The translations under genes were made by a program, and so were the position numbers. Shown piece by piece: positions 3,792 to 38,060 of a stretch of DNA of 39,690 nucleotides. The notes under the pieces are model-generated. The model did no database searches. It was not told the origin of the DNA and worked only from the letters and a program-made list of their open reading frames with translations. Every line of letters starts with the position of its first letter. Position 1 is the stretch's first letter. Source of the DNA: a virus. The stretch covers positions 1 to 39,690 of IMG/VR virus record IMGVR_UViG_3300021364_000059; one strand, 5' to 3'.

Positions 3792-3801
3792 GAGAAAAAC
3801 T

Positions 3802-4233
3802 ATGAAAATGAAAGACATTAACGAAGCGTTTGGTGAAGCACATGACGACTTTGGTCTAGCAAGACACGGTAGTGAATTAGATGATCCAGAAGCAGGTATG
3901 AAGCCTGGCTTCAAGAAGGTTCCTTTATCATCACAACTGATGAAAATATTAGATTCACGTAGCAATCCAAATCCAATCAAAAGTGTACAGACAGATGATG
4001 GCAAGGAAGTACCTATGAGTGCAAATATGGCAAAGGCTTTACTTGCATTATTACGCGGACAAATTGGTAATATGAAACCAATGGCACGTGAAAGACTTAC
4101 AGACAAGTTACAGCAGTCATCAGGTTTAGAAATGGTAATGAAAGCCAAAACAGGTGAACAACTTATTGCAAATGCTGAAGAACTTATCGGCATGGGCGAT
4201 ATGGATAGACAAAAAGATAAGAGTATCTACTAA
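3802..4233 (+). CDS. Conserved phage protein with capsid-targeting-like N-terminus, 143 aa
   Basis: The protein begins MKMKDINEAFGEAHDDF, where INE followed by Ala fits the T4 prohead-protease cleavage pattern after a short amphipathic leader. The remainder is Met- and Lys-rich and mostly helical, with no domain that I recognise. It is preceded by GGAGAAAAACT, a good ribosome site, and is followed directly by the next gene at 4234. Context and leader suggest a capsid-interior or scaffold-associated protein; this is an inference. Confidence 0.6.
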   Translation: MKMKDINEAFGEAHDDFGLARHGSELDDPEAGMKPGFKKVPLSSQLMKILDSRSNPNPIKSVQTDDGKEVPMSANMAKALLALLRGQIGNMKPMARERLTDKLQQSSGLEMVMKAKTGEQLIANAEELIGMGDMDRQKDKSIY

Positions 4234-5109
4234 ATGGAATTCATTAAAGAACTTCACGAAGCAAGACTGACTAGACAGGGAGGTGCATTAAAATCACTTA
4301 CCTATACAGACTGTTGTGAGCGAGCATATCTTACAATGCTCATTATGGAAGTTCTTAGACGTTTTCCTAACTTTGCGGCATATGCACATGGATATGCTAA
4401 AAAGACATCAGGGCATGATAACTATAAACATTTTAGGATGTCAGGAACTGATTTGTATAACTTTATATACTTTGTTGTGGGTGACAAAGATGCTCTTGAT
4501 AAATTAAAAGATCCAGGAGCGGCGTATGCATTACGTAGAACTACACAGTTTCCGTTAATGGGTTTCAATAGATATGTTTCAAAATTAAGCATGGGCGGTG
4601 TTGGCAATGTTGCACAAGACCAACAGACTTTTATTAATATGGAGTCTGCTCTAAAGATTACTAATAGCGATTACAAAGCTATTAGAAGAAATCTTTTTAG
4701 TTTCCAATCCCTATCCTCAAACAGTAAGAAGCAGTTGGTTACAAGATTACTATTAGCATCTCGTGCTAAATTAAGAAACAGTGATATTATACAATACTTA
4801 GAAGAACTTTCAGCAGAAAGAAATCTTGAAGTGTATAAAGTAAATGATCCGGAACCAAAAGTTAGTGTTCCAGACATTGCAGTTACCAGTCAGGATATGG
4901 CTGGTTACCTAAGATTAGTAGGTGCTAAAAATTTAATGCTAACAAAGAAGTTTTTAGAGCTTGCTAAAGACGGCAAAAGTATTCCTGCAAATGTATTGCA
5001 GGCTTACATGCCTGCTATTATTATATTGGATAATATAGCAAAAGGCGGTGCAGGATTTGTACAGGCCCTAAGAGCTTTGGAAAATCGAGCTCAAAACAGC
5101 CGAAAATAA
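4234..5109 (+). CDS. Conserved marine T4-like phage protein, 291 aa
   Basis: The ATG follows the previous stop codon directly, so coupling is likely. The N-terminus MEFIKELHEARLTRQGG contains LHE followed by Ala, again a prohead-protease-type site. The rest is largely helical with aromatic clusters (for example YNFIYFVVGDKDALDKL) and has no recognisable catalytic motif. Its neighbours also carry short leader-like N-termini, so a virion-interior role is possible. It ends 19 nt before a consensus late promoter that opens a new unit. Confidence 0.6.
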   Translation: MEFIKELHEARLTRQGGALKSLTYTDCCERAYLTMLIMEVLRRFPNFAAYAHGYAKKTSGHDNYKHFRMSGTDLYNFIYFVVGDKDALDKLKDPGAAYALRRTTQFPLMGFNRYVSKLSMGGVGNVAQDQQTFINMESALKITNSDYKAIRRNLFSFQSLSSNSKKQLVTRLLLASRAKLRNSDIIQYLEELSAERNLEVYKVNDPEPKVSVPDIAVTSQDMAGYLRLVGAKNLMLTKKFLELAKDGKSIPANVLQAYMPAIIILDNIAKGGAGFVQALRALENRAQNSRK

Positions 5110-9075: not shown

Positions 9076-9987
9076 ATGCATATTAGAGAATTTTCAAAGC
9101 CCATTACAGTCAAAGCACTGAATGAGAACCTGGCTAAAAAATATGGAAAAACAATTAATGTAGATAAGTTTACTATGGAACAATTATTAGATGTTCGTAA
9201 TAGACTAAGAACTACACTATCACAAGTTGAAACTAACGAAAGTTTTGACTCAGTACACACAAGCGAAACTTACCAGAAGAATAAATTGTTCCTTGAACTT
9301 CTGAACCAAGCTATCGCAGAGCGTGAAGCAGTTGAAGAAAAAATGGATCCAGTAGGCAAAGAAGATGACGATGTTAATAACGATGGTAAAGAAGATAAAA
9401 CAGACGATTATCTAAAAAATAGACGTAAAAAAGTTTCAGCCGCAATTAACAAAGGCAAAGGTAAAAAAGATAAAAAAGACGAGTCAGTAGTACGTGAAGG
9501 CGCTGAAGAAGAAGCAACACTAGTTATGGCCGCTAAAGACATGGTCGACAGAGTTACAGGCTGGATGGAAGACACAGCAGAAATGCAAACAGAATCCATG
9601 CTTGAAATAGGCGACAAGATCAGAGACGAAATGGGCGTAGATAAATCAGAAGAATTTATTAATGCAGTTAAACCTGCACTAGGCTCTTTATTCACAGCAT
9701 TGGAAAGCACACGAGATTCACTTACAGGTGGCGTAGCTATTTTGACTGGTGAAGGTGCTCCTGACACAATGGGCGATGAAGTACCTGCAGATGACGATAT
9801 GGACATGGAGCCAACAGTCGATGCAGATGCGGAAGCAGAAGCCCCAGAAGGCGATATGGGTGATGAGTTTGCGGCGGCAGACGCATCAGCAGGCGGTGAA
9901 GAAGAAGACGATAGAGGCAAACGGGAAAGTATTGAGCTTTCAAAGCGTTTAGGTCTGCTATTAGCGGATTCAAAAAAAAAGGATTAG
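9076..9987 (+). CDS. Acidic prohead-core-like phage protein, zero-frame product 303 aa
   Basis: The protein starts MHIREFSKPITVKALNENLAKKYG, where LNE fits a prohead-protease site. It contains charged Lys/Asp/Glu tracts (residues 90-140), a helical middle (MVDRVTGWMEDTAEMQTESM) and a very acidic Asp/Glu/Ala-rich segment (residues 230-280). Strong acidic and helical character with a cleavage-type leader is reminiscent of T4-like head scaffold or core proteins. The zero frame stops at 9985-9987 directly after the codons AAA AAA AAG; the -1 frame continues for about 100 further codons (next entry), so the full product may be about 404 residues. Confidence 0.6.
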   Translation: MHIREFSKPITVKALNENLAKKYGKTINVDKFTMEQLLDVRNRLRTTLSQVETNESFDSVHTSETYQKNKLFLELLNQAIAEREAVEEKMDPVGKEDDDVNNDGKEDKTDDYLKNRRKKVSAAINKGKGKKDKKDESVVREGAEEEATLVMAAKDMVDRVTGWMEDTAEMQTESMLEIGDKIRDEMGVDKSEEFINAVKPALGSLFTALESTRDSLTGGVAILTGEGAPDTMGDEVPADDDMDMEPTVDADAEAEAPEGDMGDEFAAADASAGGEEEDDRGKRESIELSKRLGLLLADSKKKD

Positions 9988-10289
9988 ATAGACTCGAAGA
10001 GACTACTTCCGATAAGCTCGCACAAGTAATTCATTTAAAAGCACAAGAAGGCGCAACTAGGATTGGTTGGGAAGAACTAAACCGATACCTTGCAAACTCA
10101 GAAAAAGAACACTACGATAAAGAGAGCTTCGTCGTTGCTTACAATAATGATCAACGTTTACAAAATCTAGTAAACAATTTTGATGAACAGGGTCTAGTAT
10201 TAGCCGGCGGCGAAGATCCAAAATCCCCACCTGAAGATAAAACTTTAGATAAAATGGCAGATAGGGCAACAGCCAACGCACTCAAATAA
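9936..10289 (+). CDS. -1 frame continuation of the acidic protein after an A9 run; no start codon of its own
   Basis: In the frame -1 relative to the gene at 9076 the DNA is open from 9936 to a TAA at 10287-10289. There is no ATG, GTG or TTG before an ATG at 10255, close to its end. Translation from 9981 gives a normal protein-like sequence of about 102 residues beginning GLDRLEETTSDKLAQVIHLK and containing EELNRYLANSEKEHYDKES. It joins the upstream frame at nine consecutive A residues (9972-9980), a classical slippery run. Either the ribosome shifts -1 here to make a longer form, or the run is one base off in this sequence or strain. Without it the stretch 9988-10289 would be unexplained. 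Confidence 0.6.
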   Translation, partial: AFKAFRSAISGFKKKGLDRLEETTSDKLAQVIHLKAQEGATRIGWEELNRYLANSEKEHYDKESFVVAYNNDQRLQNLVNNFDEQGLVLAGGEDPKSPPEDKTLDKMADRATANALK

Positions 10290-10943: not shown

Positions 10944-11188
10944 AAATTAGATTCTATCAAAAATTAGACAAAGGCAGATGGTTAGGTTTTATGATAGCCA
11001 TACTAGCCGCATATATATTATCAGATGCTAATACAGATACACAAGCAATAGGTTGGGGCATGGCGTGTATTAGTTGTTTAATGTGGATTTACTTTGCAGT
11101 GAAAGATAAAGATATTCCAAGAGCATGTATGGAACTTATGTATATGTTACTTGCTATGCGAGCAGTTTACAATTGGATGATAGGATGA
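10940..11188 (+). CDS. Small membrane protein, 82 aa
   Basis: About three hydrophobic helices (FMIAILAAYIL; IGWGMACISCLMWIYFAV; ELMYMLLAMRAVYNWMI) and a basic N-terminus MKIRFYQKLDKGRW, so an inner-membrane protein is expected. It overlaps both neighbours by 4 nt (ATGA), forming a coupled string of oxygenase-like gene, this gene and hemC. Function unknown. Confidence 0.65.
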   Translation: MKIRFYQKLDKGRWLGFMIAILAAYILSDANTDTQAIGWGMACISCLMWIYFAVKDKDIPRACMELMYMLLAMRAVYNWMIG

Positions 11189-11928
11189 AGATAGGCGTTC
11201 GCGGTAGTAAGTTAGCCTTGGCCTATGCCCAAAAGGCAATTGATGCAATAGGCGAAGGTGAAATAGAAATAATCAAAACAGATGGTGATTTACATCCTGA
11301 TACTCCAATACATGAAATTGGTGGTAAAGGAGTATTCTGCAATGCTATTGAATATGCACTTGCACAAGGAATAGTTGATGTAGCAGTACACAGTCTAAAA
11401 GATATGCCAGGAGATGTAGAACATCCTGACCTACATATTTGTGCAGTTTTAGAACGTGCTAGGCCTAGCGATGTTCTAATAGGAAATATAAAAGATAACT
11501 TTGTACTAGGAACTAGTAGTCCAAGACGTAAAGCTCAATTAGAACAACTGTATGCTAACCATCATGTACAAATCAAACCTATAAGAGGTAATATAGATAC
11601 AAGGCTTGCAAAATTAGATGCAGGTGAATACGATGCTATTGTATTAGCAGAAGCTGGACTAGATGCTTTAGGCATAAAAAGAGAATATACAAGATTACCT
11701 ATCATTCCAGCAGTTGGGCAAGGTATAATTGCTTTGCAAACACGTAAAGACGATGCAAAGACAAATGAAATAGTAAGCAAAGCAAATCATAAACTTACAT
11801 ATGAACAGGCAAAATTAGAAAGAGCATTACTTAAAGGCATAGCAGGAGATTGTCATACTAGAGTCGCAGGACATGCGAAAGGTGATAATCCAATAAAGCT
11901 AGAAGCAGTATATTACACGGAGAATTAA
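11185..11928 (+). CDS. hemC: Porphobilinogen deaminase (hydroxymethylbilane synthase), short form
   Basis: HemC condenses four porphobilinogens to hydroxymethylbilane, an early step of heme synthesis. Seen: GVRGSKLALAYAQ at the N-terminus, GGKGVF, the catalytic-Asp segment HSLKDMP (Asp near 73), GTSSPRRKAQL, RGNIDTRLAKL, PAVGQG, and the dipyrromethane-cofactor Cys in AGDCHTRV (Cys223). All core motifs are kept. At 247 residues it is about 60 shorter than typical HemC, losing most of the third domain after the cofactor loop. The start at 11185 is chosen over 11125 because the protein then begins at the conserved N-terminus and overlaps the previous stop as ATGA. It may feed the heme oxygenase/bilin reductase pair near 30.5-31.8 kb. 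Confidence 0.9.
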   Translation: MKIGVRGSKLALAYAQKAIDAIGEGEIEIIKTDGDLHPDTPIHEIGGKGVFCNAIEYALAQGIVDVAVHSLKDMPGDVEHPDLHICAVLERARPSDVLIGNIKDNFVLGTSSPRRKAQLEQLYANHHVQIKPIRGNIDTRLAKLDAGEYDAIVLAEAGLDALGIKREYTRLPIIPAVGQGIIALQTRKDDAKTNEIVSKANHKLTYEQAKLERALLKGIAGDCHTRVAGHAKGDNPIKLEAVYYTEN

Positions 11929-19240: not shown

Positions 19241-19618
19241 TTGGGCATGATTGAAAGTTTATTTGTGCTTTGGGGACTGTTTATCAAACACGCTATTGCA
19301 GACTTAGCGATACAATCTTTCAGAACACCAGGAGACAAAAGCAACCTTAGAAATCCTAAGGGTTGGATCCATGCGTTTGATCATTCTGCACTCACATTTG
19401 TTGTGATAATTCTAGCAACATTTAATTTTACAAATGCAATACTTATTGCTCTACTAGATTATGTTTTACACTTTATAATTGATTACGTTAAAACAGTAAT
19501 TATTAAAAAGAACAAATGGGACATAGATAGCAGAAAGTATTGGATCGCACAATCAGTAGATCAAATGGCTCACTTTAGTTGTTATTTAATTTACGTTCTT
19601 CTCTTGACATCTACCTAA
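19241..19618 (+). CDS. DUF3307-like membrane protein, TTG start, 125 aa
   Basis: Several hydrophobic helices (residues 4-14, 46-64, 68-86 and 108-122) with polar motifs typical of the DUF3307 family: IKHAIADLAIQS near the start, GWIHAFDHSALTF, and LLDYVLHFIIDYVK. The His/Asp pairs inside membrane segments are characteristic of that family, whose function is unknown. The TTG start is preferred because AAAGGA lies about 8 nt upstream; the ATG two codons later is the alternative. A sigma70-type promoter for the tmRNA lies inside the end of this gene. Confidence 0.7.
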   Translation: MGMIESLFVLWGLFIKHAIADLAIQSFRTPGDKSNLRNPKGWIHAFDHSALTFVVIILATFNFTNAILIALLDYVLHFIIDYVKTVIIKKNKWDIDSRKYWIAQSVDQMAHFSCYLIYVLLLTST

Positions 19619-19634
19619 AAAGACAGTATAAATA
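19604..19634 (+). promoter_or_regulatory. Overlapping sigma70-type and T4 late promoters for the tmRNA
   Basis: TTGACA, 17-nt spacer, TATAAA; the -10 box is the start of a perfect late-promoter octamer TATAAATA (19627-19634). The same site can thus serve host sigma70 polymerase early and the phage late sigma factor later, giving constant tmRNA supply. Confidence 0.75.
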
Positions 19635-19650
19635 TAAACGTAACGTTGAA

Positions 19651-19985
19651 GCAATTCAAACGCTAGACAGGACCTGGGGGCAGTACCCAGCAGGTCCACC
19701 ATAAACACATTGTAAGTTTGCGATAGTGTGTTTATGATGGGCCTGAACTAGGATCGACTGGTAGTTAATAGATGAGTGGAGTTGCCCGGATCTAAGCTCG
19801 GTTAACGCGAAGACACTTTACAAATGCAAACGCAACTGTAAACAACGGCGAATTTACTTTCGTGAACTTCGGTGCACTTAATGACTTCGCTGTCAATGAG
19901 GATTTCGCCCTAGCGGCCTAATCGCTCGGGGTTGGCGACTTACCTAGCAACAGAAAAGTCGCACTTTTACTATGTTACCTGACAT
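19651..19985 (+). ncRNA. ssrA: Circularly permuted (two-piece) tmRNA
   Basis: tmRNA rescues stalled ribosomes and tags the nascent protein. The acceptor piece comes first: the T-arm CTGGG/CCCAG, then CAGGTCC and ACCA (19691-19701). A spacer hairpin (TAAACACA pairing with TGTGTTTA, about 19702-19735) follows; then the coding piece begins GGGCCTGAACTAGGATCGA at 19739. GGGCCTG pairs with CAGGTCC over seven positions (one G-U), rebuilding the acceptor stem across the permutation. The tag frame runs from GCA at about 19826 to TAA at 19919-19921: 31 residues starting ANATVNN and ending EDFALAA, an ssrA-type degradation tail. Two-piece tmRNA is the alphaproteobacterial form, supporting such a host. 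The outer ends and the resume codon are estimates. Confidence 0.9.
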
Positions 19986-19993
19986 TATAAATA
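19986..19993 (+). promoter_or_regulatory. T4-type late promoter, perfect TATAAATA
   Basis: A perfect TATAAATA followed by CTT, 95 nt before the ATG of the outer-membrane protein gene at 20089. The leader between them has no other gene; it contains the repeated words TATAAG/TTATATAA and an AGAGGAAAA ribosome site. Confidence 0.75.
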
Positions 19994-20088
19994 CTTCGTG
20001 CCATAAAAGCACATCATATCTATAAGTTTAGATAACTACACATTGTAGGCAAGTACGACCTACACTTTTATATAAAAGAGGAAAATAA

Positions 20089-27759: not shown

Positions 27760-28350
27760 ATGGCACTGACTGCTGAACAGTGGTTCCCTTCAGTAATTTG
27801 GTCTGGTATGATGGATGGTGTTGAAAACGCCGCCATTGAAACATTCGCACAAGATCGTAAACAGGTAGATGAAGGTGTACACGTATCTAATTATATAGGT
27901 TGGCAAAGCGGACCTATTAGGCAAGGTGATAACGAAGAATTTGATAATCTTGTGAAAGCCATTGACGAACAAATCCATAATTGTGCAGTGCAGGCAGACT
28001 TGCCCGAATTACAAATCCAAAACATATGGCTCAATGTAAATGGTCCTGGTTCATATAATCATCTGCATAATCACGCAGGATCTATATTAAGCGGAGTGTA
28101 TTATGTAAAGGCTACTCCCGAACAAGGCAATATCTTTTTTGAAAGAGGAGATAATGCTGAATACTTCCTTCCACCAATGGAGAAACCAAACTATTTTACA
28201 AGCACCGCAACAACATATAAAGCAATGACAGGTGCAATTTATATTTTCCCTGGTTGGTTGAAACACAGTGTACAACCTAACCTTACAAAAGAAGATAGAA
28301 TTAGTATTTCGTTTAATTACGGTATCAAACCAAAAGAGGTAGTTAAGTAA
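27760..28350 (+). CDS. 2OG-Fe(II) oxygenase-type protein (TIGR02466-like), 196 aa
   Basis: Landmarks: [21 protein letters not shown] with the metal-binding His residues, [35 protein letters not shown] with the distal His, and [10 protein letters not shown] with the Arg that usually binds 2-oxoglutarate. This order matches the family of putative 2OG-Fe(II) oxygenases frequent in marine T4-like phages. The substrate is not known; hydroxylation of a protein or nucleic acid is possible. It follows bS21 after 1 nt and overlaps guaC by 1 nt, so all three are probably coupled. Confidence 0.82.
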
Positions 28351-29510
28351 TGCGTATCGAAGAAGATATGAAGTTAGACTATAAAGATGTTCTTATTCGT
28401 CCTAAGAGAAGCACACTAGGTAGTCGTAAAGAAGTTGATCTAGAACGTGGCTTTACCTTCCGTAACTATAAGCCTGAAGCAATGACTATGGAAGATATTA
28501 GGCCAGAATATAGACACTATCGTGGCACTCCTATTATGGCAAGTAATATGGACGGTGTTGGTACATTTGAAATGGCAGATACTCTTGCTACTGGAGGTAT
28601 CTTTACTTGTCTAGTAAAAACCTATAGTGTAAATGAACTTGTTGGTTATTTTGATAGAGATGATAAATCACATGATCCTGCAAGAACAGAATACGTTGCA
28701 ATGAGCATTGGTATTACAGATGCAGATCATGCAAAATTTAGAGATGTATATGAGCAAACTGGTAGCAGACTAAAGTATGTTTGTATTGACGTAGCAAATG
28801 GCTACTCAGAAAGATTTGCACAGTTTGTAAAAGAATTTAGAAGTCAGTATCCTAATATTGTTATTATTGCAGGCAATGTAGTAACTGGCGAAATGACAGA
28901 GGAGTTAATTTTAAGTGGTGCAGATATTGTTAAAGTTGGTATTGGTCCTGGTAGTGTTTGTACTACCCGTATCCAAACAGGCGTTGGCTACCCCCAACTG
29001 TCAGCAGTCATTGAATGTGCCGATGCCGCACACGGACTTGGAGGACATGTTATCGCAGACGGAGGATGTACCTGCCCAGGAGACGTTGCTAAGGCTTTCG
29101 CTGGAGGTGCCGATTTTGTTATGCTTGGAGGAATGTTGGCAGGTCACGATCAAGGTGGGGGAGAAGTAATTACAAAAATTTATGAAACTAACCAAGTTAA
29201 AAAAACCGATGACGGATTCTTTGAATCTGTTTACGAAGAAAAGCAGTTTGTACAGTTTTATGGCATGAGCAGTAATGCCGCCAATAAGAAGCATTTTGGT
29301 GGACTCAAAGACTATCGTTCATCAGAAGGCCGTGAAGTACTTGTTCCATATAGGGGCGATGTAGCGGCTACAGTGCAGGATTTACTAGGTGGAATACGTA
29401 GTACTTGCACATATGCAGGCGCACTTAGACTAAAGCATCTAATGCGTTGCACAACATTTGTACGTTGTACTCAACAATTCAATGGTATATATGCTACAGA
29501 TGATAAATAA
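28350..29510 (+). CDS. guaC: GMP reductase (IMPDH/GMPR family), 386 aa
   Basis: GuaC converts GMP to IMP with NADPH, moving guanine into the adenine branch. Seen: [25 protein letters not shown] at the start as segments, [34 protein letters not shown], the catalytic-Cys loop [55 protein letters not shown] and GGIRSTCTY. No CBS domains are present, separating it from IMP dehydrogenase. It is slightly longer than cellular GuaC (about 346) through insertions near residues 40-55 and 290-300. Base composition rises in GC around 28985-29130, over the active-site region. In a phage it would rebalance purines released from host nucleic acid. Confidence 0.93.
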
Positions 29511-29598: not shown

Positions 29599-30060
29599 AT
29601 GACAAGAATAACAACTCTAGACTTACCCTCAATACATAGACACTTTGTAGGATTCGACAGAATGTTCGATGAAATGGACAGAATGTTTGAAAACTCTAAG
29701 AGTCAAGGGTATCCTCCATACAACATTGCACAGATCAACGATAATGAATATATGATTTCATTGGCAGTTGCTGGCTTTGGTATGGATAATCTTTCAATTG
29801 AAAAGGACAAAAATGTTCTAAAGATTGAAGGTACTGCTCCAAAAGGAGACGATGAAGTAAATTATCTACACAGAGGAATTGGCGGAAGATCATTCCGTAG
29901 AGAGTTTACTCTAGCAGAACACGTAGATGTTCACAATGCTGAACTTAAAAATGGTATGCTTAATATCCATTTGAAGCGTGAAGTTCCAGAAGAACTGAAG
30001 CCTAAGAAGATTGAAATCAACTCAGGCGCAACTATCGAAGGAACCGTTTCCGAGAAGTAA
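29599..30060 (+). CDS. Small heat-shock protein, Hsp20/IbpA type
   Basis: A 153-residue alpha-crystallin-type holdase that keeps unfolding proteins soluble. The N-terminus HFVGFDRMFDEMDRMFEN is the IbpA-like amphipathic arm. The crystallin domain follows: YPPYNIAQINDNEYMISLAVAGF as segments, then IGGRSFRREFTLAEHVDV and the LKNGMLNIHLKRE strand, with a PKKIEI tail. It may protect capsid or host proteins during infection. A GGGGGAG/CTCCCCC hairpin separates it from clpS. Confidence 0.93.
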   Translation: MTRITTLDLPSIHRHFVGFDRMFDEMDRMFENSKSQGYPPYNIAQINDNEYMISLAVAGFGMDNLSIEKDKNVLKIEGTAPKGDDEVNYLHRGIGGRSFRREFTLAEHVDVHNAELKNGMLNIHLKREVPEELKPKKIEINSGATIEGTVSEK

Positions 30061-30108: not shown

Positions 30109-30420
30109 ATGAGTGTAGAACTAGAAACAGAAATTAATGTAAAAGAACGTATTAAAGACGTTGTTCAAGAACCTGGAAAATATAAGGTTATCTTTGCTAA
30201 CGACAACGAAACTCCTATGGACTTTGTTGTAGGATTACTAGTAGATGTGTTTAGACATAGCAATGAAACTGCCAAAGAATTAACCATGCGTATACATGAA
30301 AAAGGGTCCGCAGTAGTCGGTGTATATGTATTCGAAATTGCAGAGCAAAAAGCAGTCGAATGTACTAAGATTTCAAGGGAGCAAGGCTTCCCATTACAAG
30401 TCGCAATTGAAAAAGAATAG
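30109..30420 (+). CDS. clpS: ClpS adaptor, phage-encoded
   Basis: ClpS delivers N-degron substrates to ClpAP and lowers ClpA use of ssrA-tagged ones. The 103-residue protein has the full adaptor domain: YKVIFANDNETPMDFVVGLL (the N-degron pocket, with Asn-Asp and Met), the helix ETAKELTMRIHEKG, the AVVGVYVFEIAEQKA segment and REQGFPLQV. The N-terminal extension that contacts ClpA is present (about 25 residues). It lies downstream of hsp20. With the phage tmRNA it suggests that the virus re-targets ClpAP. Confidence 0.92.
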   Translation: MSVELETEINVKERIKDVVQEPGKYKVIFANDNETPMDFVVGLLVDVFRHSNETAKELTMRIHEKGSAVVGVYVFEIAEQKAVECTKISREQGFPLQVAIEKE

Positions 30421-30428
30421 TATAAATA
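30421..30428 (+). promoter_or_regulatory. T4-type late promoter, perfect TATAAATA
   Basis: A perfect TATAAATA right after the clpS stop and 41 nt before the heme oxygenase ATG at 30470, which has an AAGGAG ribosome site. It opens the heme oxygenase/bilin reductase unit. Confidence 0.78.
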
Positions 30429-30469: not shown

Positions 30470-31057
30470 ATGAGTTTAGCATCACTAACACAGGCCGCTC
30501 ATCAAAATGCAGAACGTCAGGAATTCGCAAGAGAAATGATGTCAGGCAATATGAGCCCTGAAAAATATAAAACATATTTGTATAATATGTGGTTAATTTA
30601 CGACATCCTAGAAGATGTTGCACTAAGCATGGGTTGCTTTGGACCTGAAGATCCACAAATGCCAGATGACGATCTACCATTAGATGGACTAATCCAAGCA
30701 GATGATATTTGGGCTGACTACACAGAACTAGGTGGAACTGAAGAAAATGCACCTACAGTAGTACCAAGCACTGAAGCATACAGAAGTCACATTATCAAAA
30801 ACTGTCAGCATGACAAAGACAAGTTGTTTGCACACATTTATGTTAGACATATGGGCGATTTAAGTGGCGGACAAATGATTAAGGACAAAGTTCCTGGATC
30901 AGGTAAAATGTATCAGTTTGCTGATATGACACATTCTGTAGATGAAATGAAAGGTCTAATCCGTAGACGTACTAAAGATAGTATGGCTGACGAAGCAAAT
31001 AAGGCTTTTGAATTTTCAACTAAGATCTTTGAAGAACTAAACGATTTAACTTACTAA
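30470..31057 (+). CDS. hemO: Heme oxygenase
   Basis: Heme oxygenase opens heme to biliverdin IX-alpha, CO and iron. The 195-residue protein carries the proximal-His helix (LTQAAHQNAER, His11), the FAREMMSGNMSPEKYKTYL helix and the distal-helix signature GDLSGGQ (about residues 129-135). Length is normal for bacterial or phage forms. The perfect late promoter at 30421 and the tight link to a bilin reductase 20 nt downstream suggest both act in one pathway. In cyanophages such pairs make bilin pigments; here the host is apparently not a phycobilin producer. Confidence 0.93.
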   Translation: MSLASLTQAAHQNAERQEFAREMMSGNMSPEKYKTYLYNMWLIYDILEDVALSMGCFGPEDPQMPDDDLPLDGLIQADDIWADYTELGGTEENAPTVVPSTEAYRSHIIKNCQHDKDKLFAHIYVRHMGDLSGGQMIKDKVPGSGKMYQFADMTHSVDEMKGLIRRRTKDSMADEANKAFEFSTKIFEELNDLTY

Positions 31058-31077
31058 AGTAAAGTAAGGAGAGTAAA

Positions 31078-31764
31078 GTGATCTGGGATCAACTCGTCGA
31101 CTGTCAAAAAGCTATCATTCAAATGTTCGATGCCCACGGTACTGAAATAGAGGAGCCAGGAATGGCACACTTTAATCAGGCGGATGGGGGTTGGATAAAC
31201 AGAGTATGGGAAAACGAACATGTTCGCAGAGCTCATATTGATGTTGTTGACGCAAGAGATTCCAAAGGGTTATGGATGATGCATGTATGTGTATTTCCAC
31301 AACTTAACAATAACGGACCTATTTACGGATTTGACGTTATTGCAGGAAAGTCCAAAATGACTGGTGCTTTCCATGATTTTTCTGCTAGTTCTGGCGGAGA
31401 AGATCACCCTATGGTTCAGTGGTATCAGAGTGCAGTACAAGATTTTGTGCCAGAAAAAAAGCGTGAGTTACCCGAGTGGGCAACTAACATCTTTACTCCA
31501 AGTATGATTGCCGCAAGCAATGTAAAGGAAGAAGAAGCAACTGTTATTATTCAACTGGCGCTAGACAATCTTGAAACTTACTTTGATTCCATTGGCCAAT
31601 ATACAGGTTATGGTGATAGAGATTTAACTATTGCAAGCCAAAACTATTACTGTCATAACCAACAACAAAATCCACACACTCCGAGAGTAATGAAAAGCCT
31701 CGGGCTTAATGAAGCAGATGTTGATAAATTCTGTACAGACATGCTCTTTCCTAAGATTAACTAG
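31078..31764 (+). CDS. pcyX: Ferredoxin-dependent bilin reductase, PcyX/PcyA-like, GTG start
   Basis: These enzymes reduce biliverdin with electrons from ferredoxin. The pattern fits the family: NNGPIYGFDVIAGKSKMTG, then HDFSASSGG, LPEWATNIFTPSMI, and a C-terminal YCHNQQQNPHTPRVMKSLG with DVDKFCTDMLFP. Length (228) is typical. The GTG start has AAGGAG 8 nt upstream. From its sequence style and its partner heme oxygenase, I place it near PcyX, the phycoerythrobilin-forming reductase described from marine viral DNA of non-cyanobacterial phages; PcyA or PebS-type products cannot be excluded without active-site comparison. Confidence 0.85.
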   Translation: MIWDQLVDCQKAIIQMFDAHGTEIEEPGMAHFNQADGGWINRVWENEHVRRAHIDVVDARDSKGLWMMHVCVFPQLNNNGPIYGFDVIAGKSKMTGAFHDFSASSGGEDHPMVQWYQSAVQDFVPEKKRELPEWATNIFTPSMIAASNVKEEEATVIIQLALDNLETYFDSIGQYTGYGDRDLTIASQNYYCHNQQQNPHTPRVMKSLGLNEADVDKFCTDMLFPKIN

Positions 31765-31848: not shown

Positions 31849-32331
31849 ATGATAGATCCATTCACCGCAGTCGCGGCGGCCACAACAGCATTCAACACAG
31901 TGAAAAAGTTTGTCAATGCTGGCCAAGAATTCGAAAACGTAATGGGCCAAATGGGCAAATGGTACACCAGTGTATCTGATTTCCGCAAAGGCCAAGCACT
32001 ACAAAAGAAACCACCAATATTCAAAAAACTATTAGCCGCAGGTTCAGTAGAAGAAGAAGCACTCCAACTGTTAATCCATGAAAAGAAAATAATGGAGATG
32101 GAGAAAGAACTTCAAACTCTGCTTAATCTACGTTTTGGGTTTGGTACATGGGATGAACTCAAAGAAATGCAACGCAAGATAAGAGCGAAGCGTGAAAAAG
32201 AAGTATATAGACAAGCAGAAGCAAGACAAGCATTAATAAACGGCTTTGCTATAGTAATATTGTTATCTATAACTGCCGCTATGTTAGTTGGATTGTTTTA
32301 TTTTGTAGGAAAGGCGAAAGGATTATTCTAG
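31849..32331 (+). CDS. Conserved phage membrane protein, 160 aa
   Basis: N-terminal helical part (MIDPFTAVAAATTAFNTVKKF), a basic middle (ELKEMQRKIRAKREKEVYRQAE) and one C-terminal membrane helix (GFAIVILLSITAAMLVGLFYFV). Proteins of this layout are conserved in marine T4-like phages without known function. A long leader with a late box and the 12-nt motif precedes it; TTAGGAG is the ribosome site. It ends directly at the start of the next gene. Confidence 0.66.
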   Translation: MIDPFTAVAAATTAFNTVKKFVNAGQEFENVMGQMGKWYTSVSDFRKGQALQKKPPIFKKLLAAGSVEEEALQLLIHEKKIMEMEKELQTLLNLRFGFGTWDELKEMQRKIRAKREKEVYRQAEARQALINGFAIVILLSITAAMLVGLFYFVGKAKGLF

Positions 32332-33178: not shown

Positions 33179-33649
33179 ATGTACAGAGTTGTTTTTTACG
33201 TAGTCATCTCGGCAATGATATTAATCAGCAAACCAGTAGCCGCTGAACTTACTTGGGGCTTTAAAAGTCCTGCGTTCCATCATGGTAATGGTTACTCATC
33301 ACATGTTTTAAGTGTTGAGCAACTACAACATAATAGAAAGCAAGATTTAAAAGACAAGGCAGATGCAGAGGCAAGGAGATTAGAACGAGAGTTAGAAAAC
33401 ACTACCCTGAACAAATTTGTTAAGAACGTTGAGTCAAGAATTTACGCAACATTATCAAAACAAATGGTAGATAGTATGTTCGCTGATTGTGGAAACAGTT
33501 GTGCAAACAGTGGTTCCGCAGAAATAGAAGGCTCGCAAATATCGTGGGTCAAAGACACTACTACAGGAGCGATTACGCTTACTGTAATAGAAGAAGACGG
33601 AAGCACAACAACTATCGAAATACCTGGATCAGGGGATTTTAACTTTTGA
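33179..33649 (+). CDS. csgF: CsgF-like curli assembly factor
   Basis: In curli systems CsgF sits on the CsgG pore and couples secretion to fibre nucleation. The 156-residue protein has a signal peptide (MYRVVFYVVISAMILISKPVAA) and then the CsgF N-terminal block: ELTWGFKSPAFHHGNGYSSH, with the family features xSPxFxGGN. The family's helical middle follows (LKDKADAEARRLERELEN) and a beta C-terminus (ITLTVIEEDGSTTTIEI). It overlaps csgG by 4 nt. The gene order csgF-csgG, the pair needed for secretion, supports the call. Confidence 0.85.
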   Translation: MYRVVFYVVISAMILISKPVAAELTWGFKSPAFHHGNGYSSHVLSVEQLQHNRKQDLKDKADAEARRLERELENTTLNKFVKNVESRIYATLSKQMVDSMFADCGNSCANSGSAEIEGSQISWVKDTTTGAITLTVIEEDGSTTTIEIPGSGDFNF

Positions 33650-34629
33650 ACAAGATCTTAATTATACTAGGCTTATTGTTACTAACTGGATGCAGTGGAA
33701 CAATGCAAAAGTCGTTGGCCATAAAGGAAAACGCTGGACCACCAAGGGTACAGCCGGCTCCATTAGCTGATAGACTAATTGCAGTTCCTGAGTTAGATGG
33801 CAAGAAAATAACTATCGCAGTTTACAGTTTTTCTGATAAGACTGGACAACGTAAACCTGCAGATAATATTGCCAATCTATCTAGTGCAGTAACACAAGGA
33901 TCCGAAGTATGGGTGATTAAGGCGTTACAAGAGATAGGCAACAAAACGTGGTTCGAAGTTGTTGAACGTATAGGTATGGATAACTTGATTAAAGAAAGAC
34001 AGTTGATCCGTAACACTAGAGAAGTATACGAGAAAAACTTACCGAACGGTCCTAGAGCATTGAAACCAATGGTGTTCGCAGGATTAATACTTGAAGGCGG
34101 CATCATTGGTTACGATAGCAACGTAGCTGTCGGAGGTGTAGGGAGTCGATACTTAGGCATAGGTGCTCAGACAGAGTACAGAGTTGATACGGTAACGGTA
34201 GTTATGAGAATTGTATCAGTAAGCACAGGGAAAGTGCTTTTGAGTATTGCAACGGAAAAAACCATTGCAAGTTCGAGGTCTGGAGCAGACATTTTTAAGT
34301 TCCTTGATATGGGAACTAAATTAATAGAATCGGAGACAGGTTATTCTGTCAACGAACCAGTAAATTACGCTGTAAGGGCGGCGATCGAAGCAGGTGTAGT
34401 TCAACTGGTATATGAAGGTGAAAAGGAAGGACTTTGGAAGTTTAAGGACACAACATACCATGGAGGTACACCTAAACAGAGACCATTACCAATCAAGGAC
34501 GCATTGGATAAATGGCCTGAGGCGAGATTGTACTGTAATGAGAGAGACTTATGTTGGCCTGTAGCTGAAGAAACAACAAAAACAACGAGGGACAACAATG
34601 ATAATGACAAGAAAGTACACCAAGAATAG
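33646..34629 (+). CDS. csgG: CsgG-like outer-membrane secretion channel, TTG start
   Basis: CsgG forms the nonameric outer-membrane pore that exports curli subunits. Seen: a lipoprotein signal (MNKILIILGLLLLTGCSG, lipobox LTGC), PPLADRLIAVPELDGKK-type segment and ITIAVYSFSDKTGQRKP, WFEVVERIGMDNLIKERQ, the transmembrane hairpin region AGLILEGGIIGYDSN and GIGAQTEYRVDTVTVVMRIV, and the C-terminal YAVRAAIEAGVVQLV. Length 327 is close to E. coli CsgG (277) plus a polar C-terminal tail of about 45 residues rich in Thr and Lys. The TTG overlaps the csgF stop (TTTGA). CsgG/CsgF homologues have, to my recollection, been noted in other SAR11-type myophages. Confidence 0.92.
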   Translation: MNKILIILGLLLLTGCSGTMQKSLAIKENAGPPRVQPAPLADRLIAVPELDGKKITIAVYSFSDKTGQRKPADNIANLSSAVTQGSEVWVIKALQEIGNKTWFEVVERIGMDNLIKERQLIRNTREVYEKNLPNGPRALKPMVFAGLILEGGIIGYDSNVAVGGVGSRYLGIGAQTEYRVDTVTVVMRIVSVSTGKVLLSIATEKTIASSRSGADIFKFLDMGTKLIESETGYSVNEPVNYAVRAAIEAGVVQLVYEGEKEGLWKFKDTTYHGGTPKQRPLPIKDALDKWPEARLYCNERDLCWPVAEETTKTTRDNNDNDKKVHQE

Positions 34630-35353
34630 CATACTAGCTTTGGTACTACTATCTATGTTCTCAGTGACTCCAGCAATAGCTAACGACATCTATATAGAAC
34701 AAGTTGGTGACACACTAGACTTAGACATTACGCAAGACGGCGCAAACAACGTTATTGGTACATCAACAACTGATGTAAATTTAGACGGTGACGATATGAC
34801 ATTTGCGATAACACAAACTGGAAGCACAAACTCAATTGTAGCAGATATACAAGGTAACAGTTATACTGGTACATGGGTATTTACTGGAGACAGTAATACA
34901 GTAGATTTAAGTTGTGACAGCACAAGTGGAACAAATTGTGAAAACATAACTTTAAATATTACAGCGACTGGTGATTCAAACGCATTTACATTTGATATTG
35001 GTGATACAGCTGATGCAGATGGATCTAGCATTGGATTTACAATTACTGGAGACGGAAACGTTATTAATTCAAACGTAGACGGCAAAAGTGCAGAGATAGT
35101 TGTAAGTGTTAATAACAGTTCAAGCACAGCAAGTGGCGGTGCGGCGAGCGGATTGCTAACGTCAAGTGGTTCAGGAAACATAGTTGACATTGACATAGAT
35201 GGCGATGGAGATAGTGCTGGACACACAGTAAAAATAGATGCAACTGGCGGTGCAAGTCACTACAAGGTTACACAAAGTGGAACAGCTGATAATATGATAG
35301 ATGCTGACTTTGCTGGTGATGACCAAGAAGTGAACATTACACAGTCTGACTAA
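34598..35353 (+). CDS. Curlin-repeat protein 1 (secreted amyloid subunit candidate)
   Basis: A signal peptide (ALVLLSMFSVTPAIA) is followed by ANDIYIEQVGDTLDLDITQDG, then repeated units of the pattern I/V-x-Q/D-x-G-x-x-N at roughly 20-25 residue spacing (for example AITQTGSTNSI, VFTGDSNTV, TATGDSNAF, TITGDGNVI, KVTQSGTADNM). Curlin repeats (xQxGxxNxxxxxQ) form beta-hairpin stacks in CsgA/CsgB. The body is Asp-, Ser- and Gly-rich with two Cys near residue 105. It overlaps csgG by 32 nt and has GAGGGACAACA as ribosome site. The mature N-terminus recurs in the second curlin protein, so they derive from one ancestor. Confidence 0.8.
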   Translation: MIMTRKYTKNSILALVLLSMFSVTPAIANDIYIEQVGDTLDLDITQDGANNVIGTSTTDVNLDGDDMTFAITQTGSTNSIVADIQGNSYTGTWVFTGDSNTVDLSCDSTSGTNCENITLNITATGDSNAFTFDIGDTADADGSSIGFTITGDGNVINSNVDGKSAEIVVSVNNSSSTASGGAASGLLTSSGSGNIVDIDIDGDGDSAGHTVKIDATGGASHYKVTQSGTADNMIDADFAGDDQEVNITQSD

Positions 35354-35362
35354 GGAAGAGGC

Positions 35363-36517
35363 ATGGCGCCAAACAAGTACACATGGTTTCTGGTCTTTGG
35401 CTTAATAATACTAGCTATACTAGTCAAACCAGCATATGGAAATGTTGGAGAGATCGGACAGATTAAAGGATCAGGCGTACTTGAAAGAGACGGTGACATT
35501 GTCATTGAAGGTAGTGCAGGTGTTGGCGTACAGTCAATGGACGAAGCAGTCACAGCAAACGGTACAATGCGTATCGACTTTATAGACGAAACCCGAGTTG
35601 AACTTACTGAACAATCTAGATTAGTAATTGATGAATTTGTATATGACCCTGCTAATGATGTAGGGTCATTATCAATCAAAGCGTCATTAGGAACAGTAAG
35701 ATACGCATCTGGACAAATTGCAAAAAAATACAAACAAAATGTTAAGATAAGAACACCAAGTGCAACTATTGGTGTACGTGGTACTGACTTTATAATGGTG
35801 GTAGACGAAATGGGTGGTAGTATGATTACTTTACTACCAAGTTGTGATACAGCAGGAATGTGCTATGTTGGCGAAATAGAAGTGCAAACAGATGCAGGCT
35901 TTGTAGTTCTTAATCAAGCGTTCCAAGCGACAGCAACAGTACACGGTATGAGAAAACCTACAGTTCCTATTGTTCTAGATATTTCAGAAGATCAATTAAA
36001 CAACTTATTGATACTTAGGAAGAAAACACCTATTGATGAATATGCAGAAGATGAAATACAAAAACGTAGACAACTTGCAGACTTTTTAGGTTTAGACTTT
36101 TTAGAGTTTGATGGATTAGACGGAGATGCTCTTAAAGATAGTATTGAAGGTATTTGGAAAACAGCATTAGATGAAACTTCTTTTATGTTGGCGGACATGT
36201 TGCATGATATGTTAGATAAATTAAATGCGGCACTTGCGGCTCTATTCCAAGATGAACTTGATAGACAAAATAGAAGAATGTTACAAAATGTGCCACAAGT
36301 AGGATTTGATCCAGAAACACAAATTAGATTAGATCTCATTGAACCTTATTGGGTCTGGCAACGTGAAGACTTTGAACAGGGTGGATTTATTAGATTGAGA
36401 TTAAATAATCAGTACGACTATACTTTAGACGTACAACAAGGGGAGTTTTTTCTATATGATTATAGATTGGGTGCTGAGGGCAACAATAGTATTACTATTA
36501 TTCAAACCAATAACTAG
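35363..36517 (+). CDS. FecR-domain secreted protein, 384 aa
   Basis: An N-terminal hydrophobic segment (TWFLVFGLIILAILVKPAYG) is a signal peptide or anchor. Then comes a FecR-type domain: DGDIVIEGSAGVGVQSMDEAVTANGTMRIDFIDETRVELTEQSRLVIDEFVYDP as consecutive segments, followed by the strand SLSIKASLGTVRYASGQIAKK and the IRTPSATIGVRGTDF segment typical of this family. In bacteria FecR domains pass signals from outer-membrane events to the cytoplasm, but many secreted FecR proteins have other roles. The C-terminal half is helical and charged, with a beta tail (FIRLRLNNQYDYTLDVQQ). It lies between two curlin genes and overlaps the second by 62 nt. Confidence 0.85.
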   Translation: MAPNKYTWFLVFGLIILAILVKPAYGNVGEIGQIKGSGVLERDGDIVIEGSAGVGVQSMDEAVTANGTMRIDFIDETRVELTEQSRLVIDEFVYDPANDVGSLSIKASLGTVRYASGQIAKKYKQNVKIRTPSATIGVRGTDFIMVVDEMGGSMITLLPSCDTAGMCYVGEIEVQTDAGFVVLNQAFQATATVHGMRKPTVPIVLDISEDQLNNLLILRKKTPIDEYAEDEIQKRRQLADFLGLDFLEFDGLDGDALKDSIEGIWKTALDETSFMLADMLHDMLDKLNAALAALFQDELDRQNRRMLQNVPQVGFDPETQIRLDLIEPYWVWQREDFEQGGFIRLRLNNQYDYTLDVQQGEFFLYDYRLGAEGNNSITIIQTNN

Positions 36518-37487
36518 TTTTGCAAACGATATCTATATGGATCAAGTTGGTGATCAACTTGATATGGATATTACTCAGGACGGCCAAAATAATTCTATTC
36601 GCAGTCTAAACACTACAAGTGGTGATGCATATATAGGTGGTAATAACAAAACATTTTCAGTTACACAACAAGGTAACAATAACCGTGCAGGATTTTGGAC
36701 ACACGGTGGTAACCAAGTTATGTCCTTGACACAGCAAGGTAATTCAAATGTAAGTTCAATGGACAATCACGGTAACAACAATGATATGACTGTTACTATT
36801 GAGGGTGACAGTAATGTCACACACACAGAAATAGGCAATGGTGGAGATATTAACAATACAATTACTGTTACAATAGACAATGGTGATAGTAATACAATCT
36901 ATACAGAAGTGTTAGATGGTAGTACAAACACTATTGATGTTCAGGTACACGACCAAAGTAATAACATCAACACAGTTACAGTAAACGGTAGCAATAACAA
37001 TGTAAAAGCATGGCAGGGCAAGCACGAAGACGGTACAATTGATAATGATGAAACAGGCGACAATGACGTGTATTGGATCATAGCAGGTAGTAATAACGAT
37101 TTGGAAAGTTATCAAACAGATGATAATGGCAATGGTGGTCAGCATATTGCAAATTATATCACAGGTGACAGCAACGATGTTAAACATACACAGCGTGGCG
37201 GAGGTGACCATGAAGGATATGTTGAGATAAACGGTGATAACAATGATGTTACACTATTACAACGTGGTAACACAGATGATCAATTTGCTGATATAGTTTT
37301 AGATGATGGGCATACTGTAGATGTTTATCAACGCTATGGTTCACATACAACTAATATTGATCTTACAAATGCAGGAGGTGGCTACAATTTAGATTTGGAT
37401 CAGACAGGCACTTCAAACAAAACCTACAATCTTACTGGCACATGCACTAACTCAAACGGCTGTGGTGTAACCGTCACTCAAAATTAA
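36456..37487 (+). CDS. Curlin-repeat protein 2 (secreted amyloid subunit candidate)
   Basis: A signal peptide (VLRATIVLLLFKPITSFA) is followed by ANDIYMDQVGDQLDMDITQDG, nearly identical in pattern to curlin protein 1. About ten repeats of the xQ/x-x-G-x-N-N type follow (SVTQQGNNNRAG, SLTQQGNSNVSS, TVTIEGDSNVTH, TVNGSNNNVKAW, YITGDSNDVKHTQ, EINGDNNDVTLLQRG). Asn plus Asp and Gly make up a large share of residues. It ends with a pair of Cys (GTCTNSNGCGVTVTQN). The start overlaps the FecR gene by 62 nt and has GGGGAG upstream. It is the best fibre-forming candidate because its repeat is more regular than in protein 1. Confidence 0.82.
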   Translation: MIIDWVLRATIVLLLFKPITSFANDIYMDQVGDQLDMDITQDGQNNSIRSLNTTSGDAYIGGNNKTFSVTQQGNNNRAGFWTHGGNQVMSLTQQGNSNVSSMDNHGNNNDMTVTIEGDSNVTHTEIGNGGDINNTITVTIDNGDSNTIYTEVLDGSTNTIDVQVHDQSNNINTVTVNGSNNNVKAWQGKHEDGTIDNDETGDNDVYWIIAGSNNDLESYQTDDNGNGGQHIANYITGDSNDVKHTQRGGGDHEGYVEINGDNNDVTLLQRGNTDDQFADIVLDDGHTVDVYQRYGSHTTNIDLTNAGGGYNLDLDQTGTSNKTYNLTGTCTNSNGCGVTVTQN

Positions 37488-37494
37488 ATAAATA
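37487..37494 (+). promoter_or_regulatory. Late promoter with leaderless geometry for the SOD gene
   Basis: AATAAATA (seven of eight) overlaps the previous stop and ends 5 nt before the ATG at 37500. No ribosome site is present. Confidence 0.6.
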
Positions 37495-37499
37495 GTATT

Positions 37500-38060
37500 A
37501 TGGAACCTAGTGAAATTCGTCACATTATAAATCTACTTGAAGGCAAGGAAGAAAAATTAACTCTATCTCCTTTGCCATATGACATGGGTGACTTATCTCC
37601 TGTATTATCAAAAGACAATGTAGACTATCATTATAATGTATTATCAAAAGGATATGTTGATAGATATAATAAAAAAGAAGGGGATCCTAAATTCAATTAC
37701 GGTGGAGCAATGCTACACAATTTGTTTTGGACTCAACTTAGAAAACCAGCAGGAGCAAACAATCCTGTAGGCTCTATCAAATCTCTTATAGAAGACAAGC
37801 ACAAAGATTATAAAACTTTCAAAGAACATGTAATTGAACAAGCAATGACCATTCAAGGTAGTGGTTGGGTATATCTTTCTAAGAAAGGTGAAATCAAAAC
37901 TACACCTAACCAAAGTTATAAGACAGATATACTAATGCCAATTGACATGTGGGAACACAGTTTTACAGATTATGTTCCAGCTAAAGATGCTAAGAAGAAA
38001 TATATTGCAGGTATCATGCGTCTTATTAATTGGGACATTATAAACCAAAGGATGTCATAA
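37500..38060 (+). CDS. sod: Fe/Mn-family superoxide dismutase with capsid-signal-like N-terminal extension
   Basis: SOD converts superoxide to oxygen and peroxide. All four metal ligands are visible: His44 (VDYHYNV), His73 (GGAMLHNLFW), Asp149 and His153 (DMWEHSFTDY). The gateway Tyr52 is present, but the partner His of the usual KHH segment is Leu. GSGWVYL is conserved. Gly69 and a Gln at TTPNQ place it nearer the Mn type than the Fe type. A 20-residue extension, MEPSEIRHIINLLEGKEEK, precedes the normal SOD start (LSPLPYDMG). LLE followed by Gly fits the T4 prohead-protease site and the extension resembles capsid-targeting leaders, so the enzyme may be packaged in the virion. That part is inference. 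Confidence 0.85.
   Translation: MEPSEIRHIINLLEGKEEKLTLSPLPYDMGDLSPVLSKDNVDYHYNVLSKGYVDRYNKKEGDPKFNYGGAMLHNLFWTQLRKPAGANNPVGSIKSLIEDKHKDYKTFKEHVIEQAMTIQGSGWVYLSKKGEIKTTPNQSYKTDILMPIDMWEHSFTDYVPAKDAKKKYIAGIMRLINWDIINQRMS

Follow-up and report, generated by a model that had tools for sequence, protein, structure and literature searches.

Among the described systems that resemble the locus discussed here, the bilin reductase PcyX_EBK42635 (PDB 5owg) was reportedly presented by Ledermann in 2016 and 2018, together with the marine viral hemO-pcyX cassette to which it belongs. The cassette has also been published from pelagiphages, as passages of Wegner 2024 (PMC11480375) relate, and is carried by Pelagibacter phage Mosig. 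The same passages name Asp55 as a catalytic residue specific to PcyX, record AlaS together with hemO-pcyX in phages, and call it enigmatic why phages whose hosts lack phycobilins carry genes for heme oxygenase and bilin reductase (FDBR). For Mosig, part of PMC7892664 gives HTCC1062 as the isolation host and notes that a second phage was still present in the culture; for the deep-ecotype pelagimyophage PMP-MAVG-4, passages of PMC7029224 name coproporphyrinogen oxidase, porphobilinogen deaminase and GMP reductase. Published work already covers the cassette, the puzzle of its purpose and its origin in pelagiphages; the stretch of viral DNA analyzed here (IMG/VR record IMGVR_UViG_3300021364_000059, 39,690 nucleotides, hereafter the window) adds another carrier. 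With a probability of roughly 0.6, we read its locus as a hemO-pcyX cassette belonging to a T4-like pelagimyophage, expressed late and making phycoerythrobilin from heme.

The first gene of the pair, hemO (30470-31057, plus strand), encodes a heme oxygenase (HO) of 195 amino acids that matches PF01126 (E=1.6e-20) from residue 3 to residue 189 and retains both His11, the proximal heme ligand, and the distal GDLSGG motif, in agreement with the identity assigned to it in the earlier note; the enzyme is predicted to open heme to biliverdin IX-alpha. The two genes are separated by the 20 nt stated in that note (gap 31058-31077), after which a GTG start opens the reductase gene (31078-31764, plus strand, 228 amino acids; PF05996, E=6.8e-17). 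The encoded FDBR is of the PcyX type, a predicted phycoerythrobilin synthase that would use ferredoxin to reduce biliverdin. By sequence match to the PDB, its nearest solved structure is PcyX 5owg (E=1.2e-78), with the best PcyA structure (2d1e, E=1.9e-14) far below, and its predicted structure (pLDDT 87.6) superimposes on 5owg with a Z of 25.7 and an rmsd of 1.2 Å over 180 residues, indicating an FDBR fold. The phylogeny with PcyA, PebS and PcyX that had been proposed places the window protein inside a single clade formed by 5owg and 26 FDBR of the window set (99/96), with PcyA in a separate clade (99/97) and PebS represented by a single sequence on a very long branch, which bears out the suggested affinity to PcyX. 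Within the PcyX clade the window FDBR occupies a separate subclade, and Mosig lies closer to 5owg.

The catalytic positions point in the same direction. Position 55 is Asp in PcyX 5owg and PebS, and Glu in all six PcyA references. Asp55, His69 and Asp86, the active-site residues whose loss would have spoken against an active enzyme, are intact in the window protein and invariant in all 52 dereplicated FDBR aligned (obtained from 80 of 303 FDBR-encoding viral-contig stretches plus Mosig and the window, Mosig being the most distant at 53%), an invariance that is partly expected because the relatives were picked by similarity. No FDBR match was found in plasmids. Comparison of the window with five relatives gives dN/dS values of 0.084-0.138 for HO and 0.046-0.075 for PcyX, indicating purifying selection on both; chance or decay of the gene pair is ruled out by these low values. 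Both genes are intact, linked and under selection.

The cassette had been described as standing behind a perfect late promoter. The octamer TATAAATA, which agrees at every position with the T4-type late promoter consensus, lies at 30421-30428 on the plus strand, 49 nt before the hemO ATG. The perfect match stands, but its conservation is restricted to the nearest clade, and the count in the window is close to chance (six copies, with 4.9 expected). An exact copy occurs within 120 nt upstream of hemO in seven of 50 dereplicated hemO-bearing loci; in six of these, namely the window and its closest kin (L003, L007, L009, L014 and L017), it is found at -46 to -51, and in the seventh (L020) at -92. 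Elsewhere, in many of the remaining loci, the start of hemO coincides with or closely follows the end of clpS, in an operon-like arrangement, and scans for sigma-70 promoters and terminators around the cassette yielded nothing above shuffled sequences.

Both genes find their best annotated match in Mosig EXVC030M, a Pelagibacter phage with HTCC1062 as host; within the searched collection, no other phage record carries both HO and FDBR. A SAR11-like host had been proposed from a permuted tmRNA and the overall gene content, an argument that is only partly upheld. The tmRNA is present (19608-20012, plus strand, ARAGORN; Rfam alpha_tmRNA, E=4e-25), but it does not fix the host, because the OM43 phage Melnitz has a SAR11-related permuted tmRNA, as passages of PMC9004378 describe; the predicted tag has 31 residues, versus nine in Mosig, and its start may be misplaced. 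The RNR of the window, about 70% identical to cyanophages and Mosig alike, does not separate the two. The matches to Mosig and HTVC008M lend the proposal some support: in the csgF-csgG pair of the window (PF10614, 8e-13; PF03783, 4e-48), which the same passages also report from Melnitz, CsgG is closest to HTVC008M and next to Melnitz. As judged from such matches, a SAR11-type host is likely for the window phage, with OM43 as a less likely alternative. The pair belongs to a single run of genes (33179-38060) for csgF, csgG, a FecR-domain protein, a curlin-repeat protein and an Fe/Mn superoxide dismutase (SOD).

The absence of phycobiliproteins expected of such a host agrees with the genomes: heme oxygenase, bilin reductase, phytochrome PHY and phycobiliprotein families were each found in 0 of 397 genomes (completeness unstated) of the SAR11 order, taken as the order of the Pelagibacterales MED-G40 genome G098 (the genome of L150), and an initial sample of 32 SAR11 genomes likewise gave 0 with FDBR. 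The proposed host order therefore shows no counterpart of either cassette gene. There is only a very slight chance that the pair maintains phycobilisomes in a cyanobacterial host, as do PcyA and PebS of cyanophages. FDBRs do occur in cyanophages, and the RNR is as close to theirs as to that of Mosig; against this, cyanophage FDBRs match the window FDBR at only 24-30%, the annotated phage nearest to the window in both genes infects SAR11, and both the CsgG match to HTVC008M and the alpha-type tmRNA disfavor such a host. No placement of the phage with a cyanobacterial host was found.

The link between the two enzymes is close, with HO adjoining or near FDBR in 50 of the 52 dereplicated loci, and yet it shows exceptions. 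In a sister clade (L010, at 9421-9990, L012 and L022), the HO homologue has lost the usual ligand His and its Gly motif is broken, while PcyX beside it is intact; the His-less HO is itself constrained, with a dN/dS of 0.067 between L010 and L012. Five further records (L050, L053, L057, L068 and L073; contigs of 14 to 33 kb) carry pcyX in a differing neighborhood, on contigs without any heme oxygenase. PcyX may therefore not always need HemO. Other loci hold additional genes between hemO and pcyX: in L013 (2629-3255), a second HO-like gene in which Tyr replaces the ligand His, and in five others (L023, at 2479-4760, L015, L024, L027 and L031), a gene of the flavin tryptophan-halogenase family, alone or together with a CN-hydrolase; halogenase and CN-hydrolase occur at this position in four and five of the 52 loci, respectively.

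The earlier note missed a gene of the window that bears on the purpose of the cassette, namely hemC (11125-11928, plus strand; PF01379, E=5.1e-60), which encodes a porphobilinogen deaminase about 19 kb upstream. Cys243, which we take to be the cofactor cysteine, is invariant in 11 aligned phage HemC. A host origin of phage HemC was considered: among the 80 bacterial matches listed for it the best eight are from SAR11, but in a tree 15 phage HemC form one clade (99/97) outside 18 SAR11 HemC, with an unresolved base. Examination of 50 pcyX-bearing records (49 contigs of at least 30 kb plus Mosig) revealed HemC in nine, AlaS in seven (counted above the curated cut-off) and HemF in two; HemE is present on six pcyX-bearing contigs (L230, L232-L235 and L143). 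Relatives such as L100 and L230 have HemF-HemC or HemE-HemF-HemC operons, plus AlaS, and one contig (G069, locus L034) brings together six tetrapyrrole enzymes: AlaS, HemE, HemC, HemF, HO and PcyX. Among 47 HemC-bearing contigs, HemE is nearby in 13 and HemF in eight (families confirmed on examples), and FDBR is present in five; where the contig extends 22 kb or more downstream of hemC, PcyX is found in four of five, a small sample to set beside the 32 of 61 GMP reductase loci described below. A ferrochelatase in the phage line was considered and rejected, PF00762 being matched in 0 of the 50 pcyX-bearing records, Mosig included; a Mosig gene (MT647606, 43207-43977) is annotated as a putative ferrochelatase, yet lacks a PF00762 match. 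Among the literature matches listed, no paper was found that joins the two published sets, the heme-synthesis genes named for PMP-MAVG-4 and AlaS with hemO-pcyX, and none of the matches shows HemE with hemO-pcyX in a phage.

Upstream of the cassette lie, in order, genes for a 2OG-Fe(II) oxygenase (27760-28350; PF13759, E=5.8e-24), a GMP reductase of the IMPDH/GMP reductase family (28350-29510; PF00478, E=1.7e-68), the small heat-shock protein HSP20 (29599-30060; PF00011, E=3.9e-16) and the ClpS adaptor (30109-30420; PF02617, E=5e-26), all on the plus strand, ClpS being the usual upstream neighbor of hemO. They recur, mostly upstream and in the order of the window, in 30, 27, 45 and 45 of the 52 dereplicated loci, respectively (36, 32, 46 and 45 by looser clustering). 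The cassette is common among relatives, yet not fixed: of 61 GMP reductase loci followed by 4 kb or more of sequence, 32 have FDBR, 31 of these 32 also having HO, and the cassette occurs in 14 of the 29 CsgG loci whose flanks are complete; a 594-aa upstream gene, as an alternative occupancy probe, gave eight loci only and was set aside. The gene that follows pcyX (31849-32331) has no Pfam match, no ferredoxin was found in the window, and no bilin acceptor was recognized among the neighbors by Pfam or PHROG match.

Iron release, bilin signaling and antioxidant action had been listed as options for the pair; no acceptor for a signaling bilin was found, and HemC makes the first less likely. According to the iron-release reading, HemO would free the iron of host-cytochrome heme late in infection for phage 2OG-Fe(II) oxygenases, RNR and SOD, and PcyX would merely clear biliverdin. 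Possible iron users are indeed encoded in the window (a 2OG-Fe(II) oxygenase, an Fe/Mn SOD and an RNR), several 2OG-Fe(II) oxygenases adjoin the cassette in Mosig, iron supply is discussed in passages of PMC11480375, and a podophage raises the expression of SAR11 iron-uptake genes, as part of PMC12753301 reports. Nevertheless, opening heme that the infected cell has newly synthesized would leave iron neither gained nor lost, so that, given the heme-synthesis genes of the same phages, the net yield of iron would be zero; biliverdin could be cleared at less cost than by a four-electron reductase, and the HO ligand is lost in a clade that retains PcyX. We thus consider iron release unlikely.

A control of redox state or heme, in which excess heme or porphyrin is drained and the bilin protects the infected cell as an antioxidant, could account for the SOD and glutaredoxin genes of the window, for the peroxiredoxin and rubrerythrin annotated in Mosig, and for the stress genes HSP20 and ClpS that so frequently stand beside the cassette. 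However, these phages boost heme synthesis rather than reduce it, and GMP reductase and HemC are common to the window and to PMP-MAVG-4, which passages of PMC7029224 describe as a deep ecotype; if the window phage lived at such depth, light stress would be small. This explanation appears decidedly improbable.

In the preferred reading, that of a late cassette that makes phycoerythrobilin, HemO would open the heme ring, yielding biliverdin IX-alpha with release of CO and iron, and PcyX, probably fed by ferredoxin of the host, would reduce biliverdin by four electrons to phycoerythrobilin; expression would be late, alongside that of the phage's own genes. With HemC in the window and HemE, HemF and AlaS in relatives, heme would be both made and opened during infection. 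Since the turnover would be iron-neutral and iron could be released without PcyX, the iron reading is weakened and the bilin is favored as the product; we put the proposal that the reduced bilin itself, rather than iron, is what is selected for at slightly under even odds. The lack of an acceptor match, the His-less HO clade and the five pcyX-bearing records without HO weigh against it, as does the fact that HemC and PcyX share a contig in part of the sample only, and the phage heme genes could serve respiration instead. The limited conservation of the late promoter also counts against the preferred reading. A further extension, which we regard as quite unlikely, is that SAR11-type phages bring in an almost full set of tetrapyrrole enzymes (AlaS, HemC, HemE, HemF, HemO and PcyX), partly missing in their hosts, for a bilin foreign to the host, that relatives with flavin halogenase and CN-hydrolase tailor it further, and that it acts via an undescribed phage or host acceptor. 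A host order with neither enzyme nor acceptor family, together with heme synthesis fed by the phage, renders iron release less likely and narrows the question, and Mosig with HTCC1062 offers a cultured system in which the bilin could be tested as the product.

Compared with PcyX_EBK42635 (5owg), the window reductase shares family, residue numbering, Asp55/His69/Asp86 and fold, but differs in about half of its residues and belongs to a separate subclade; its pairing with hemO is that of the marine viral cassette described in passages of PMC11480375. Mosig EXVC030M (MT647606), whose host is SAR11, likewise has adjacent HO and FDBR genes, a permuted tmRNA and an RNR, whereas its HO and FDBR are only 37.9% and 52.6% identical to those of the window, and its cassette adjoins 2OG oxygenases and neck genes, with no HSP20-ClpS directly upstream and no HemC match in the phage; HSP20 lies elsewhere in the Mosig genome, and in the window directly upstream of ClpS-hemO. 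PMP-MAVG-4 is alike by description in its GMP reductase and porphobilinogen deaminase, but the main text of PMC7029224 gives it a coproporphyrinogen oxidase and no bilin gene, the word bilin occurring there 0 times. The phages of likely pelagiphage origin in passages of PMC11480375 also combine a heme-synthesis gene with hemO-pcyX; theirs is AlaS, whereas the window has HemC, with no AlaS seen, and its relatives add HemE and HemF. What appears new to us, relative to these systems, is the linkage of a HemE-HemF-HemC operon to hemO-pcyX, the clade with a His-less HO, and the loci in which a flavin halogenase and a CN-hydrolase stand between hemO and pcyX.
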